A stretch of 21,094 nt of DNA. Origin: a virus. Of this stretch, positions 1 to 21,094 are shown one piece after another. The position numbers and the translations under genes were made by a program. Within the stretch, counting starts at the first letter, position 1. Each line of letters begins with the position of its first letter. The stretch is taken from positions 1 through 21,094 of the IMG/VR virus record IMGVR_UViG_3300049855_000043, one strand, 5' to 3'. The notes below the pieces were generated by a model. It saw only the letters and a program-made list of their open reading frames with translations. It ran no database searches and was not told the DNA's origin.

Positions 1-246
1 ATGCATCGCACGCTGCCCGAGCGCGGGATCAGCATGACGGCCGTCTCGTCGGCCGGGTACAAGGTGGTCGACAAGTATGCAGCCCGCATCTCGCGCGGCG
101 GCTCGGCCCCGAAGATCAAGGGGCGGGCGCACTGGATCGTCTGCGACCCGATGGCCGACGAGGACGCGCAGGTCTGCGTGCCCTTTGACTGCCCGCGCCA
201 AGCCGAGGCGATGCTCAACGGCCTTCAGAATTTGAGGGCTGCATGA
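1..246 (+). CDS. Small hypothetical protein preceding the tail-fibre genes
   Basis: I do not recognise this product. An ATG sits at the very first base of the window, so the frame gives an 81-residue protein, but the true start could lie outside the window or at the in-frame ATG at 34 (residue 12). The protein is soluble-looking, with a basic N-terminal half and an acidic stretch around residues 55-60, and it has two cysteines (about residues 48 and 59). I see no signal peptide, membrane segment or known motif. Its stop codon overlaps the next start as ATGA (243-246), so translation is probably coupled to the downstream tail-fibre gene. This argues that it is a real late gene, perhaps a small tail or chaperone protein, but that role is inference from position only. 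Confidence 0.6.
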
Positions 247-923
247 GCAACCTTCCGTCCATCCCCTGGACCAACCGCGAACGGGCCGAGATCCGGCGCC
301 GCCTGCTGGCGCTTGAGGCGGCGGGGCCGGGCGGCGGTGGCGTTTCGGACGGCGACAAGGGCGACATCACGGTCAGCGGGACCGGCGCGGTTTGGACAAT
401 CGACGCCGGGGCGGTGACGGATGCCAAGATTTCAGCGGTCGGGTGGGGCAAGCTGACGGGCGTCCCGGCTGCGATCAGCAGCACCACGGCGGCCTTTACG
501 ACGGCACAGGAAACGAAATTGTCGGGCGTGGCGACGGGGGCTACGGCGAACGCCGCGGATTCCGCGCTTCGGGACCGGGCGACCCACACCGGAACTCAGG
601 CCGCGTCGACGATCAGCGACTTCAACACGGCGGTCGCGGGCCAGATCACGGGCAAGCAGAACACAATCCCCTCCGGGACGGCAACCATTACCATCCCGAG
701 CCCGCAGGACGCCTGGACGGAGACTGTAACGGCGGTGGGCGTTACCCCCTCCAGCCGAGTGTTCTTGAGCCTTGGCCCGATGGACGACCTGCAAGAGAAC
801 CATCCCGAATGGCTGGGCGGCCTTGCGATGGGCTGTGTGCCCGGCACCGGCCAGATCACCGTGTCCCTCGGGTTTACCGAACGTCAAAGCGGCCCCGTGC
901 CGATCATCTGGAGCGCCCTCTGA
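243..923 (+). CDS. Tail-fibre-like protein
   Basis: This 226-residue protein is probably a trimeric tail-fibre or tail-tip component. A short helical, arginine-rich N-terminus (residues 10-25) is followed by a Gly-rich linker and then by low-complexity Gly/Ala/Thr segments with [10 protein letters not shown] and THTGTQAAS, both typical of phage fibre shafts. The last 70 residues look like a compact beta-rich domain (roughly 155-226). This resembles the C-terminal domain of other phage tail proteins by my memory of the family, not by a search. A GAGGG ribosome-binding site at 234-238 precedes the ATG, and the start overlaps the upstream stop. The stop overlaps the next gene as TGATG, so the two fibre-like genes are probably co-translated. 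Confidence 0.72.
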
Positions 924-1657
924 TGCCACAGCTTGCAACACCATCCGGCAGACTTCTCCACCCGCGCGAGAACCTGTCCCAAGTCAGCAACCTCGCCTCG
1001 GTCGCGGCGGGGACGGAAAGCTTCTGCGACGGATGCAGCAGTGTCATGCTTGACATTCGCGGCACCTTCGTCGGCACGGTCACGCTCGAAGGCACCGTTG
1101 ACGGATCAAACTGGACGCCAATCCTGCTCTATCCAGTCAACCAGGCCAGCATCGTGCCTGTGCTCGGCCCGACGGCTATCGGTCTCTGGACTGGCGATGT
1201 GAGCAAGTTTTCCCGTGTCCGCCCTCGCATGACGGTCTGGACCTCGGGAACGGCAAACTGCACCGTAGTTTCAGACAACTCGCCTTTCGTCGTGCCGGAC
1301 ATCGCGCATGTGTCCCTGACCGCCACCGCTGCGGTCTCGACCGCCGTGACCCTGACGATCCCGGCCCCCGGCGCGGGCCTGCGGCAGTATGTGACTGGCC
1401 TTTCCATCGAGCGGTTTGCAACGGCCCTGCTAACGGCGGCGGCGGCACCGATCATCATTACCAGCACCGGCCTTGTCGGCACCCCGTCGTGGAACACGCC
1501 TCTGGAAGCCGCCGCGCAGGGCACGATGTTCACCCGTGACATTCAGTTTCCGACGTCCATCCCGAACGCCGCGCAGAACGCAACCGCCGTCATCACCTAC
1601 CCGATTGTGACTGGGGCGATCTGCCGCCTCACCGCATACTGGCGCATCGGGCAGTAG
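923..1657 (+). CDS. Beta-rich tail or fibre protein
   Basis: This 244-residue protein starts at the ATG at 923, which shares a base with the previous stop (TGATG) and has GGAG at 910-913. The same frame stays open upstream to 392, but that extension only shadows the preceding gene. The protein has no membrane segments. Residues about 35-110 form a beta-rich module containing LEGTVDGSNWTPI, a pattern seen in many phage structural proteins. The remainder is Ala/Thr-rich and looks like a second beta-sandwich ending in an aromatic tail (AYWRIGQ). Position between two fibre-like genes suggests a distal tail, fibre or receptor-contact role. This is inference, and an accessory head protein is the main alternative. 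Confidence 0.65.
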   Translation: MPQLATPSGRLLHPRENLSQVSNLASVAAGTESFCDGCSSVMLDIRGTFVGTVTLEGTVDGSNWTPILLYPVNQASIVPVLGPTAIGLWTGDVSKFSRVRPRMTVWTSGTANCTVVSDNSPFVVPDIAHVSLTATAAVSTAVTLTIPAPGAGLRQYVTGLSIERFATALLTAAAAPIIITSTGLVGTPSWNTPLEAAAQGTMFTRDIQFPTSIPNAAQNATAVITYPIVTGAICRLTAYWRIGQ

Positions 1658-16950: not shown

Positions 16951-19853
16951 TGGCTGACCCGACTGAAGCACAGCTCAAGGAAGCCGCGCGCAAGGCGCTG
17001 GCCGCTGGCAACACTGCTTCGGCCAAACGGCTGATCGACGCTGCGCGGAAAGCGGCTGCTGCAACGCCAGCCGTTCCAAACGGGATGACGCAGGACGGCG
17101 CAACCACGCGCCCGGTCTACAAGGAAGACACGCTTCCCGGCCCGGCCACCGCCGCTTTTGCGGACGGCGATCCGCGCAATCCGGTCGCAGCACCAGCCTC
17201 GGTCGACGACCGCAACCTGGTCGATTCCATCATGGACGGCGCGGGCTACTTGGCCCAGGAGACCACGCGCGGCGTGACCAACATGCTTGGTGCCCCGGTC
17301 GACATCGTCAACTCGCTGCCGATGCTCGCGAACGTCCTCCCCGGCGTCGAGGGCGTCGGTCCGATGAGCCCCACCCCGGCTGGTGGCGGCCGCATGTTGA
17401 ACCAAGTGGCCAGCCTGCCGAAAGACGTCGTGGAGTATGCCTTCGACGGCCAGACGTATGATGACCTCACCACCGACAACCCGTACCTGCGAGTCGCGGG
17501 GCGCGCGGCCAACGAGATCGGCGCGTCGATGTTGCCGATTGGCGGCGCAATGCTGGCCGCTGGTAATATGGGCGCGCAGGGCGCGCGGAACATGGGCGGC
17601 CCGATCGGCGACATGATCGAAAGCGCCGCGGTCAACCCGACCACGTTCGGCATGAAGGAAGCTGCGGTTTCCGGCGGTGCTGGCGCAGGCGCGGGCATCG
17701 CTCGCGAAGTCGTATCGGATGGCGACCCGACCACGGTCACACCCAGCGAAGGCATCGCGGACCTGTTCGGCGCGCTGCTCGGCGGCGTAACGACCCAAGG
17801 CACGATGCTGGGCCTGGGCGCCGGCCGCGACATGGTTGGCGCGATCACAGGCGGCGGCGGGGGCTCGCTGGTCCGCGAGATCGCGGCAGACGCTATCGGC
17901 GAAGCGGCAGGCGTCCCCAAGGTCGACGGCGTGCGGGACACAGGCGGGCTGGGCACAGCCATCGCGACCGGGAAGCGTGTCGGCGACACGATCCCGGGCT
18001 TTGTCGAATCGACTGGCGACGTGTTGAAGAACTCCGGCGTGCAGGCGCTCGAATACGGCCGCCAATCCGGCCCGAACGCGGGCACCTACGCGCAGCGGCG
18101 CACGCAGAACACCGAAGCGGTCAACATGGCCATCGACGATCTGGCCCCCGAGGCGACGCCCGGCGCGTTCCGCGAGCCCCTTGCGGTGCAGCGTGACGCC
18201 GCCTTGGGCGAAGCCGGGGCCACCGCCACGGCAGCGCAGGACGCCTTCGACGTGGCCGCGCAGAAGCTGCAGACGTCCATGTCGGGCGAGGCTCGGGGCC
18301 AGACGATCCGCGGGGCGCTCGACGAGGCTTTGGGCGCGGCCCGGACGGTCGAGCGCGAAGCGTGGTCGGCTGTCTCGGGCGAGGCGGATCCCGCGCCACT
18401 GGCGACCGCTTTCGAGGACGTCACCAACGGGCTCACTATGGCCGAGCGTCGGGCCGTGTCGACTCTAGGCGAAGCTGTCGGCACGCCCGGCGTCTTGGCC
18501 GGTGAAGGCAACGTGGACTTGGCCGAGATCACATCGCTCCGGTCGGAACTTCTGACCGGCGTGCGGCAAGCGAAGGCCGCTGGCGACTCGAACCAAGTCC
18601 GCATCATCGAGAAATACATCCAAGCGATCGACGGCTACATGGACGGCATCCCGCGCCTCGCAGAGCCGCTGAAAGCCGCTCGCGACGTGTCGTTCGACCT
18701 CAACGAGCGGTTCACCCGTCGCGGCACTCCCGTCGCCGACGTCATGGCGTCGCGCCCCTCGGGCGGCCCTGTCGTGCCCGACAGCCGGGTCGCGCCGCGC
18801 TTCATCGCGCCCGATGAGGGCCAAGCGTCCAACATCGACCGGATCATGCGCGAGAGCGGCAACTCCGCCGACGTGCAGGCCGCGCTGGCCGACGAGATCA
18901 AGGCCGGGGCGCAACCGCTCCTGAACAAGCCGGACCAGTTGGACGCTTACCTGAAAGAGTACGGCGCAGTCTTCGAGAAGTTCCCCGAGTTGAAAGCAGA
19001 ACTCGGCACCGCAGCGGCTCTGCGCCGCTCGGCCGATACGGCTGCGGGCGCCAAGGCCGCTACGGACGCTCGCCTCGGTCCGACCGGCACCTCTGCCGTG
19101 GCCAAGTACCTGCAATACGGCGACGAGCGGGCCGTCGACGCCATGTCGGGCGTGGTGAACGCCAAAGACCCGAAGGCGGCCATTGACGAACTGATGACCT
19201 TCGCCGGCAATGACCCACAGACCGTTGAGGGCGCACGCTCCGCCTTCTGGGAACTGATGAAGCGCGACGCCAAGTCGTCCGGCTCGTCCACGCGCACCGC
19301 TACGGGCGATCAGCCTTGGCGGCCGTCGTCGCTCTACAACTTCCTGAAGGATCCCAAGCGCGCTGCGGTGGCCGAACGGCTCTACACCGACAACCCGGAG
19401 CACTTGGACAACCTGAAGGGCATTGCGGAGGAACTGCGGGGCGTGGACCTGCGGTCCTCAGCCAAGGCCCCGAACACCTCGGGCACGCCGCAGGGCCTAC
19501 AGGGCAACCAGATTCTGCCCTCTGCCGAGACGCTGGGCGCCTACGGCATGGCCTACCAGCGCGGTCAGGTCGGCGCGGGCTTCATTGGGCTGCGCTTGGC
19601 ATCTGTCATGGCCCGTCGGGCGCAGATGATCGGCCGGGGGCGCGAGTTCCAGAACGTGATCGACAAGGCGCTTCTGGACCCGGACTTTGCGGCGCTTCTG
19701 ATGAAAGAGTACAACCCGGCCGACGCTGCGGCGATGGCCCGGTCCGCGAAGGCGTACCTTGGCACCCGCTCGGCCTGGATCGACGAGGCGCTGCTCGGCA
19801 CGGATACGGGCGAAGACGACGACATGAAGAACACGATCATGGGGGATGAATGA
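16950..19853 (+). CDS. Large internal virion / DNA-ejection protein
   Basis: This 967-residue protein is the largest of the ejection block. The N-terminus has an alanine-rich helical repeat-like opening (AQLKEAARKALAAGNTASAK at 7-26) of the sort seen at the start of other phage ejection proteins. Residues about 180-310 are Gly/Ala-rich and hydrophobic (IGGAMLAAGNMGAQGARNMGG; GALLGGVTTQGTMLGLGAG), suitable for membrane insertion during ejection. Residues from about 360 to 800 are strongly helical with many charged residues. The C-terminal 130 residues hold a Gly-rich turn region followed by helices with YNPADAAAMARSAKAYLG. No enzymatic motif is apparent. It starts at ATG 16950 overlapping the previous stop, with GGAG at 16939-16942. 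It probably forms part of the trans-envelope channel after ejection. Confidence 0.75.
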   Translation: MADPTEAQLKEAARKALAAGNTASAKRLIDAARKAAAATPAVPNGMTQDGATTRPVYKEDTLPGPATAAFADGDPRNPVAAPASVDDRNLVDSIMDGAGYLAQETTRGVTNMLGAPVDIVNSLPMLANVLPGVEGVGPMSPTPAGGGRMLNQVASLPKDVVEYAFDGQTYDDLTTDNPYLRVAGRAANEIGASMLPIGGAMLAAGNMGAQGARNMGGPIGDMIESAAVNPTTFGMKEAAVSGGAGAGAGIAREVVSDGDPTTVTPSEGIADLFGALLGGVTTQGTMLGLGAGRDMVGAITGGGGGSLVREIAADAIGEAAGVPKVDGVRDTGGLGTAIATGKRVGDTIPGFVESTGDVLKNSGVQALEYGRQSGPNAGTYAQRRTQNTEAVNMAIDDLAPEATPGAFREPLAVQRDAALGEAGATATAAQDAFDVAAQKLQTSMSGEARGQTIRGALDEALGAARTVEREAWSAVSGEADPAPLATAFEDVTNGLTMAERRAVSTLGEAVGTPGVLAGEGNVDLAEITSLRSELLTGVRQAKAAGDSNQVRIIEKYIQAIDGYMDGIPRLAEPLKAARDVSFDLNERFTRRGTPVADVMASRPSGGPVVPDSRVAPRFIAPDEGQASNIDRIMRESGNSADVQAALADEIKAGAQPLLNKPDQLDAYLKEYGAVFEKFPELKAELGTAAALRRSADTAAGAKAATDARLGPTGTSAVAKYLQYGDERAVDAMSGVVNAKDPKAAIDELMTFAGNDPQTVEGARSAFWELMKRDAKSSGSSTRTATGDQPWRPSSLYNFLKDPKRAAVAERLYTDNPEHLDNLKGIAEELRGVDLRSSAKAPNTSGTPQGLQGNQILPSAETLGAYGMAYQRGQVGAGFIGLRLASVMARRAQMIGRGREFQNVIDKALLDPDFAALLMKEYNPADAAAMARSAKAYLGTRSAWIDEALLGTDTGEDDDMKNTIMGDE

Positions 19854-20506
19854 TGGACCTGCGTACCGGCATCATTGAGACGGCGGCCGCGCTCGGCATG
19901 GACCCCGTTGATCTGGCCACCATCATCTCCTACGAAACTGCCGGAACGTTTGACCCGACCAAGGGCGGCCCGACGACGCAGTGGGGCCAGCACCGAGGTC
20001 TCATCCAGTTCGGTGAGCCGCAGGCCAAAGAATACGGCGTCGACTGGAACGACCCGATGGGCTCGCAGCTCGGGCCGCAGGGCGCTGTCGCCAAGTATTT
20101 CCTGTCGAACGGCTGGCAGCCCGGCATGGGCATGATGGACGCCTACTCGATCGTAAACGCGGGCGCACCGGGGCGCTACAACGCCTCGGACGCCAACAAC
20201 GGCGGGGCGCCGGGCACGGTCGCGGACAAGGTGACGGGCCAGATGGAAGGCCACCGGGCCAAGGCGACGGGCTTGCTGGGCGGGGATTACACACCCCCGG
20301 CAGGCGGGCTCGCTTTCGGAGCAGGCGTGCCGAAGGTGCAGGATCCCAGCGCGCTTGGGCTGGCCGGACTGTTCGGGGCTCAAGGCCCTGGCGGGCTGTC
20401 GATGGGTGCGCCTGCGGTGCAGCAGCCCGTGCAGGCAAAGGCCCAGGCGAAGGAAGACGCCGACCAGAAGCGAAAGATCGCCCTAGCCGACCTCATGCGG
20501 TTCTGA
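19853..20506 (+). CDS. Virion-associated lytic transglycosylase
   Basis: This 217-residue protein (218 if the adjacent ATG at 19850 is used) probably cleaves peptidoglycan to help DNA entry. The N-terminal 125 residues match a lysozyme-like transglycosylase: LATIISYETAGTFDP carries the expected catalytic Glu (residue 28 from 19853), followed by TTQWGQHRGLIQFGEPQAKEYG and later SIVNAGAPGRYNASDANNGG. The remaining residues are Gly/Pro/Ala-rich, with a charged tail, and lack cell-wall-binding repeats. No signal peptide is seen, which with the location at the end of the ejection block favours a virion protein rather than a lysis endolysin. I prefer the start at 19853 because every coupled start in this run uses the same TGATG overlap and GGGGGA lies six bases upstream. 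Confidence 0.88.
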   Translation: MDLRTGIIETAAALGMDPVDLATIISYETAGTFDPTKGGPTTQWGQHRGLIQFGEPQAKEYGVDWNDPMGSQLGPQGAVAKYFLSNGWQPGMGMMDAYSIVNAGAPGRYNASDANNGGAPGTVADKVTGQMEGHRAKATGLLGGDYTPPAGGLAFGAGVPKVQDPSALGLAGLFGAQGPGGLSMGAPAVQQPVQAKAQAKEDADQKRKIALADLMRF

Positions 20507-20556
20507 CGCCCCGACTACACCCAACTGATTGTATGTCGGGCGGTGTTTCTCGTTTT
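20507..20556 (+). terminator. Bulged hairpin terminator ending the late operon
   Basis: Immediately after the transglycosylase stop, CGCCCCGAC (20507-20515) pairs with GTCGGGCG (20535-20542), with one bulged C. The stem continues as TACA/TGTA (20516-20519 and 20530-20533), separated by a bulged T. The loop is ten bases. TGTTTCTCGTTTT follows at 20544-20556. The arrangement fits a plus-strand intrinsic terminator for the structural operon. Confidence 0.65.
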
Positions 20557-20570
20557 AGTTCAACGTGTTA

Positions 20571-20638
20571 GCGCGCGGAGAGCCTGTAAGCCGGATACAG
20601 TTGTTGGCCGTTGTCCGCACTTGTCTTTCTCCGCGCGC
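20571..20638. repeat. 11-bp perfect inverted repeat enclosing phased TTGT motifs
   Basis: GCGCGCGGAGA at 20571-20581 has its exact reverse complement at 20628-20638, enclosing 46 bases. Within and after the interval TTGT recurs at 20601, 20611, 20621 and 20641, each on the same ten-base phase. A smaller CTGTA/TACAG inverted pair (20584-20588 and 20596-20600) lies inside. It sits between the converging late genes and the integrase cluster. It could be a regulatory or integration-related DNA element, or a structured terminator (GCGCGCCCTTGTTTTT follows on the plus strand). I cannot decide from sequence alone. Confidence 0.6.
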
Positions 20639-20647
20639 CCTTGTTTT

Positions 20648-20890
20648 TCAGGTCGTAGCGGATCGCTGTAGGCCATTGTCGGTCGTGTCCGTGCCCGGAT
20701 CGGGGCGTTGCGCCCGGGTTTTGTGCCGCTGTTTCAGCGCGTCGACGAACCACGAAGCTTGCTCCGAACCGAACATGCGGAAGCTGTGCCCGGACCTGAG
20801 ATACACCCGCGCGCCGAACGCCACTTGCTTGACGGCGGCCACCTCGTCGAGGTTAATGTAGTGGCCCGAGAGCCAATAGTGGTTCGTCAT
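20648..20890 (-). CDS. Small hypothetical protein overlapping the integrase gene
   Basis: This 80-residue protein is read on the minus strand from ATG at 20890-20888. AAGGAG (20902-20897 on that strand) lies six bases ahead, so the start is well supported even though the frame is open further upstream. The start overlaps the integrase stop as ATGA, showing translational coupling. Residues 1-50 look like a small beta-rich fold (HYINLDEVAAVKQV and ARVYLRSGHSFRMFG), then a helix (SEQASWFVDALKQ) and a disordered basic tail. I do not recognise the family. Being coupled to integrase it may modulate recombination, such as a directionality factor, but excisionases usually precede the integrase gene. 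Confidence 0.72.
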   Translation of the reverse strand: MTNHYWLSGHYINLDEVAAVKQVAFGARVYLRSGHSFRMFGSEQASWFVDALKQRHKTRAQRPDPGTDTTDNGLQRSATT

Positions 20891-21094
20891 GCTGCTCTCC
20901 TTCCGATGATGTTGACGGCCTCGGCGTGCAGGCCGGGCACCCATTTGGCGTAGGTCTTCTCGACCTCCTCGACCGTGTTGCCGAGGATCTTGGCGATGAC
21001 CCACAGCGCCACGCCGTTGCGGGCCATGACGGTCCCGGCGGTGTGTCGGAAGACGTGGGGCGTCAAGCCGGACACGCCCGCCGCAGCCCCGAGC
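20887..21094 (-). CDS. int: Tyrosine recombinase / phage integrase, C-terminal part (continues beyond window)
   Basis: The visible 68 or so residues are the catalytic C-terminus of a tyrosine site-specific recombinase, which would integrate or excise the phage DNA. The box-II HVFRHTAGT is encoded at about 21057-21031 and gives the H-x-x-R pair. ILGNTVEEVEKTYAKW follows, with the likely catalytic Tyr at 20952-20950. The residue after LG is Asn, where many family members have His. The start lies outside the window, so the gene is partial. It ends at TGA 20889-20887, overlapping the start of the small downstream gene. It is transcribed opposite to the structural genes. Confidence 0.93.
   Translation of the reverse strand, partial: LGAAAGVSGLTPHVFRHTAGTVMARNGVALWVIAKILGNTVEEVEKTYAKWVPGLHAEAVNIIGRRAA

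Follow-up and report, generated by a model that had tools for sequence, protein, structure and literature searches.

A Probable Phage Attachment Site with a Copy of the RNase P RNA Gene End of Rhodobacteraceae

The window analyzed here is a 21,094-bp viral contig without end repeats (IMG/VR record IMGVR_UViG_3300049855_000043). The region 20507–20700 is very probably a phage attachment site (attP). The phage would be a tailed phage infecting Rhodobacteraceae, temperate or at any rate equipped with an integrase, and its tyrosine integrase would direct insertion to the 3′ end of rnpB, the gene of the ribonuclease P (RNase P) RNA. A reading of the letters alone had pointed to an attachment site at this place, and that proposal is borne out. 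The features observed are a segment shared with rnpB, the orientation of that segment, a recombinase-type core geometry, conserved phased motifs and an integrase. The two central elements are as follows.

20571..20596, minus strand: attP identity block, the reverse complement of the Rhodobacteraceae rnpB 3′ end (GCGCGCGGAGAGCCTGTAAGCCGGAT), including the 3′ strand of P1; from host loci and RF00010, invariant in three phages.
20584..20600, no strand assigned: probable crossover core CTGTA-AGCCGGA-TACAG, 5-bp inverted half-sites with a 7-bp spacer; from the sequence and host comparison, with a presumed crossover position.

The rnpB segment was spotted by eye and then tested against host loci. 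The window and the Rhodobacteraceae rnpB 3′ end are identical over 26 bp (20571–20596), and over 30 bp (to 20567) in the case of host locus L128. The longer match was considered as an old left junction (attL) and rejected, as the L128 genome has no such integrase and four extra bases can arise by chance. Host identity ends exactly at the integrase-side edge of the block, where the next base differs (ACAG in the phage, TCTG in the host). Rfam assigns all six Rhodobacteraceae loci tested to bacterial RNase P RNA class A, and the gene ends at this block; the RF00010 matches score 250–300 bits and end there as well. The window itself gave no Rfam match at the gathering threshold and only chance microRNA-type matches at E ≤ 10, as so short an rnpB segment escapes the model. 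Apart from the window, the sequence GAGCCTGTAAGCCGGAT (20580–20596) has matches in just two IMG/VR contigs, each of which carries the same integrase. In bacterial genomes it is present in more than 117 stretches, about half of them Rhodobacteraceae. Its host context is (T)GCGCGGAGAGCC leftwards and GGATTCTGT or GGATTTTGT rightwards.

The phage copy points away from the integrase, extending from the core as far as the gene's 3′ terminus. It pairs with the host 5′ P1 strand. As the phage carries the last 26 bases of rnpB, insertion would rebuild, not break, the essential gene.

Three other viral contigs with related integrases (L002, L003 and L272) retain the layout. The integrase C-termini are 94–97% identical across the window, L002 and L003, and the rnpB block is unchanged in L002 and L003 while the sequence to its left diverges. 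Phage genes flank attP on both sides in these three contigs, which is what a phage that is not integrated should show. Because the window is a metagenomic contig that breaks off inside the integrase, a host fragment or a chimeric join, foreign to the phage, might be suspected; but three independent viral contigs share the block between phage genes and a fourth, L272, carries another host's version, which makes this explanation scarcely credible.

The L272 integrase is 58% identical to the L003-type enzyme and the layout is the same. Its tail differs (AATGCGCGGATGGCCTGTAAGCCGGAT) and reads ATGCGCGGATGGCCTGTAAGCCGGAT. The specific part of this tail has one match among 289 alphaproteobacterial genomes, located exactly at an rnpB 3′ end (G302/L309), and that genome was also drawn as Rhodobacteraceae. 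For both phage types, host identity ends at the same base (GGAT). Thus two phage types carry two host versions of one gene end. Duplex energies show that the tails of the window, L002 and L003 mostly pair best with the 5′ P1 strand of type-1 hosts. The L272 tail gives −27.5 kcal/mol with the type-2 host P1 versus about −21 kcal/mol for window-type tails; discrimination is weaker on type-1 hosts.

A 5-bp inverted pair around 7 bp matches the core geometry of tyrosine recombinases of the lambda integrase type, with half-sites on either side of a 6–8 bp overlap. CTGTA (20584–20588) and TACAG (20596–20600) with 7 nt between them had been listed in the sequence-only reading as a nested pair. The pair is present, but its core geometry and its position at the edge of the 26-bp rnpB copy had been missed. 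The left half-site and spacer are common to the host and the right half-site is phage-specific (TTCTG or TTTTG in hosts); in the host and in L272 the inverted half-sites show only partial symmetry. Beyond the core, motifs resembling arm-type integrase sites lie on the integrase side, and a candidate for such a site lies to the left.

20602..20625, minus strand: first arm-type-like cluster, GGCCAACA (20602–20609) and GACAA at 20611–20615 and 20621–20625 (the phased TTGT/TTGTC); from motif comparison.
20667..20684, minus strand: second arm-type-like pair, 10 bp apart, GGCCTACA (20667–20674) and GACCGACA (20677–20684); same positions in L002, L003 and L272.
20530..20541, minus strand: candidate left (P) arm site GCCCGACATACA; the plus-strand sequence TGTCGGGCGG is identical in L002 and L003.

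The motif TTGT is found at 20601, 20611, 20621 and 20641, as first noted, and again at 20676. Four TTGT sharing one 10-bp phase did not occur in 5000 shuffles of the 80-nt region, nor did any 4-mer repeated four times in that phase (0/5000). The copies at 20611 and 20621 are in place in all four phages, but those at 20601 and 20641 are not kept in all. Both minus-strand GACAA motifs (20611 and 20621) lie at a fixed distance from the core in the four phages. Further out on the integrase side are GRCCTACA-like motifs, 10 bp apart and in the same place in all four. The phased GRCCTACA/ACAA counts were reached in 1, 8, 1 and 0 of 1000 shuffles for the four phages, and a search with the arm pattern gave matches only in L002, L003 and L272. 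These phased short motifs are candidate arm-type sites. A candidate integration host factor site left of the core (TTCAANNNNNTTAG) shows the exact consensus in L002 only and is too weak to claim.

The region also displays a longer inverted repeat that overlaps the rnpB block.

20571..20581, no strand assigned: left arm of the 11-bp inverted repeat, equal to the P1 3′ strand of rnpB; from repeat search and host loci.
20628..20638, no strand assigned: right arm of the 11-bp inverted repeat, with one uncompensated change in L002 and L003 and diverged in L272; from phage comparison.

The two arms match exactly (GCGCGCGGAGA and TCTCCGCGCGC) with 46 nt between them, a spacing rightly noted at the outset as a poor fit to a recombinase core. 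When the 144-nt intergenic stretch was shuffled 5000 times, a perfect 11-bp inverted repeat of this kind arose in a single shuffle. Over the whole window, with spacers up to about 60, shuffles show a mean of 1.07 and two are observed. An RNA element or terminator had been offered as the alternative, and an RNA hairpin or intrinsic terminator between the convergent late and integrase operons, with the rnpB likeness secondary, was considered. The hairpin does lie between convergent genes, and on the plus strand a 12-bp stem is followed by CCCUUGUUUUU. An 85-nt fold is significant in the window (z = −3.1) and in L003 (z = −3.2), but not in L002 (z = −1.1, with a broken U-tract) or L272 (z = +0.2). 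The region 20561–20655 gives z = −2.0 on the plus strand and z = −3.4 on the minus strand. However, the loop is 46 nt, and a terminator scan did not report the structure. In L002 and L003 an uncompensated change shortens the match of the right arm and leaves a helix of 8 perfect bp; the helix is broken in L272, where the arm diverges without an alignment gap of consequence. An A-U pair seen in the window is unpaired in the other three phages. Covariation is limited to one two-sided change, a count that 111 of 500 shuffles also attained, and sliding the register by two columns gives an equal score; with four sequences this is weak evidence either way, but it lends no support to an RNA element. 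A terminator or hairpin also leaves the exact rnpB match unexplained, and is considered improbable. The 11-bp inverted repeat is a by-product: rnpB dictates the left arm, and the right arm falls within the putative arm sites and shows no conservation of a helix. The sequence-only reading had named related phages with the integrase but no repeats as a refutation; L272 is such a case for the long inverted repeat, but not for the attachment core.

The closest isolate found is Rhizobium phage RHph_N65 (MN988536), with terminase 53% and integrase 36% identical. It shares with the window the order repressor-integrase-attP-lysin and displays three GACCTACA motifs on the integrase side, two of them 10 bp apart. 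Unlike the window, its att segment resembles by eye the 3′ half of a transfer RNA (tRNA), with a T-arm ACGTG-TTCGAGT-CACGT followed by AAGCGGCACCA (L310:5884-5913); Rfam gave no call for this fragment. The tRNA-like half points the same way as the rnpB copy of the window. The shared layout and repeats together with the tRNA-like half suggest a single integrase system with tRNA and rnpB among its targets. As a separate observation, L310:5773-5913 is an unannotated probable attP of RHph_N65, and the anticodon loop of its tRNA-like half, read by eye, is possibly TTCGTAA (Thr).

Instead of serving integration, the rnpB tail could act as a decoy or as antisense RNA, binding host RNase P or altering it. 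The phage copy stems from the 3′ region of RNase P RNA, which is conserved universally, and one can conceive of phage RNAs or proteins with an effect on RNase P. Against this, no promoter-like site was found by a scan for the sigma-70 type, and the end of the segment coincides with a recombinase-type core, next to which lie an integrase and repeats resembling integrase arm sites. In addition, L272 alters the segment to fit the P1 of another host, and RHph_N65 seems to have a tRNA 3′ half in the same place. A decoy role is thus very unlikely.

For the attachment site, a sequence of events can be proposed. The integrase would bind the CTGTA/TACAG half-sites, its N-terminal domain would bind the ACAA-type arm repeats, and strand exchange would take place in or at AGCCGGA. 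The rnpB body would be joined to the phage tail TCTCCGCGCGC, so rebuilding P1 of the RNase P RNA, and the host's own rnpB tail would end up at the integrase-side junction. The junctions expected are the rnpB body followed by …GGCTCTCCGCGCGCTAACACG and the host downstream sequence followed by …GATACAGTTGT.

Several points weigh against this proposal. The search for lysogens used the integrase, the phage-type core CCTGTAAGCCGGATACAG and GCCTGTAAGCCGGATR, in two overlapping samples of Rhodobacteraceae genomes with one genome per species. No close integrase is present in 394 genomes, and no phage-type junction, left or right (attL/attR), was found in 390 and 394 genomes. Only the last 68 amino acids of the integrase lie in the window; the crossover point, the arm sites and integrase binding are deduced from sequence; and the GACCTACA count in RHph_N65, taken alone, does not reach significance (108 of 1000 shuffles). 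T7-like cyanophages offer a parallel for infrequent integration (PMC8776855), which might also apply here.

Other phages may use rnpB. L266 (IMGVR_UViG_3300037482_000262), from another group, starts within an rnpB-like 3′ domain that is too short for Rfam. In L266:1-1240 about 40 bp separate the rnpB-like tail from a convergent tyrosine integrase, whose 3′ end comes first (152–1240, minus strand). The arrangement probably marks the junction of an unrelated phage integrated at rnpB. A further group is represented by two contigs.

L289:6552-7620 and L300:4862-6068: second integrase group with ACCCGGCTTACAGGC, possible further rnpB attP sites.

In L289 and L300, ACCCGGCTTACAGGC has an rnpB-like continuation and lies 98 and 44 bp, respectively, from the integrase 3′ ends. 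Their integrases are 38% identical to each other and about 26% identical to the window group. The balance tips slightly towards rnpB being a recurrent, uncatalogued attachment site, used by at least three distantly related tyrosine-integrase groups (the window; L266; L289/L300), with integration swapping the 3′ P1 strand of an essential ribozyme for the phage copy. The attP described here would add the gene of an essential ribozyme to the few structural RNA genes at which phages are known to insert. More sites can be sought by a sequence rule, a …CCGGCTTAYAGGC tail adjoining an integrase, and the P1 strand carried by uncultured phages links them to hosts. If integration happens, each lysogen would express RNase P RNA with a phage-encoded 3′ end.

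Extra rnpB 3′ tails (GCGGGTGAGCCTGTAAGCCGGATT...) without an rnpB body are found in L112, L141, L153, L152, L125, L104, L066 and L150 (Acidobacteriota and others), sometimes 1.5–3 kb from the full gene; they may be dispersed repeats or att remnants. Those of Acidobacteriota (L112, L141, L153 and others) are not claimed as attachment sites, as no integrase was recognized between the copies. L137:576-1097, from an Acidobacteriota metagenome-assembled genome, shows a weak tyrosine-recombinase match about 100 bp behind an rnpB 3′ end. The large phage contigs L254, L304 and L305 contain a complete rnpB within tRNA arrays (RF00010, 253–264 bits), either a phage-encoded RNase P RNA or host sequence.

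The genes neighboring attP in the window are the following.

20887..21094, minus strand: C-terminal part of a tyrosine recombinase (integrase), truncated where the contig ends; PF00589.
20648..20890, minus strand: 80-amino acid open reading frame between integrase and attP, no Pfam family; from the open reading frame list and Pfam search.
19850..20506, plus strand: late gene, separated from the integrase by attP, with a weak PHROG "peptidase" match; the RHph_N65 counterpart is annotated putative lysin A.

Plus-strand late genes extend up to 20506 and the integrase enters from the right end on the minus strand. The repeats sit where the genes converge, flanked by the last late gene and by the 80-amino acid open reading frame 3′ of the integrase. 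The "integrase cluster" named in the sequence-only reading includes one tyrosine recombinase, with PF00589 found in both the 68-amino acid window fragment and a full-length relative; its other member is the 80-amino acid open reading frame, which has no Pfam match. Inside this frame, at 20700–20722, the plus strand has a short hairpin (GGGCGTTGCGCCC) and then GGGTTTTG, which together look like a terminator but are roughly at shuffle level. No phage DNA similar to the window was found in INPHARED, and no tRNA or transfer-messenger RNA (tmRNA) gene was found in the window.

Phages normally use tRNA or tmRNA genes for gene-restoring integration, and rnpB is therefore an unusual target. No description of an rnpB attachment site was found among the open-licence papers searched, which does not prove that the site is undescribed. 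Lambda-type attP sites at tRNA 3′ ends, where the gene is restored, are known from roseophages at tRNA-Leu (PMC7305329). CRP-810 integrates at tRNA-Thr (PMC11288001), and T7-like cyanophages integrate at tRNA-Leu (PMC8776855). The window shows the same arrangement as lambda-type attP sites at tRNA and tmRNA 3′ ends: an integrase beside an intergenic attP, an exact short copy of the 3′ part of a structural RNA, a short-spaced inverted core at the edge of the block and arm-like repeats in helical phase.
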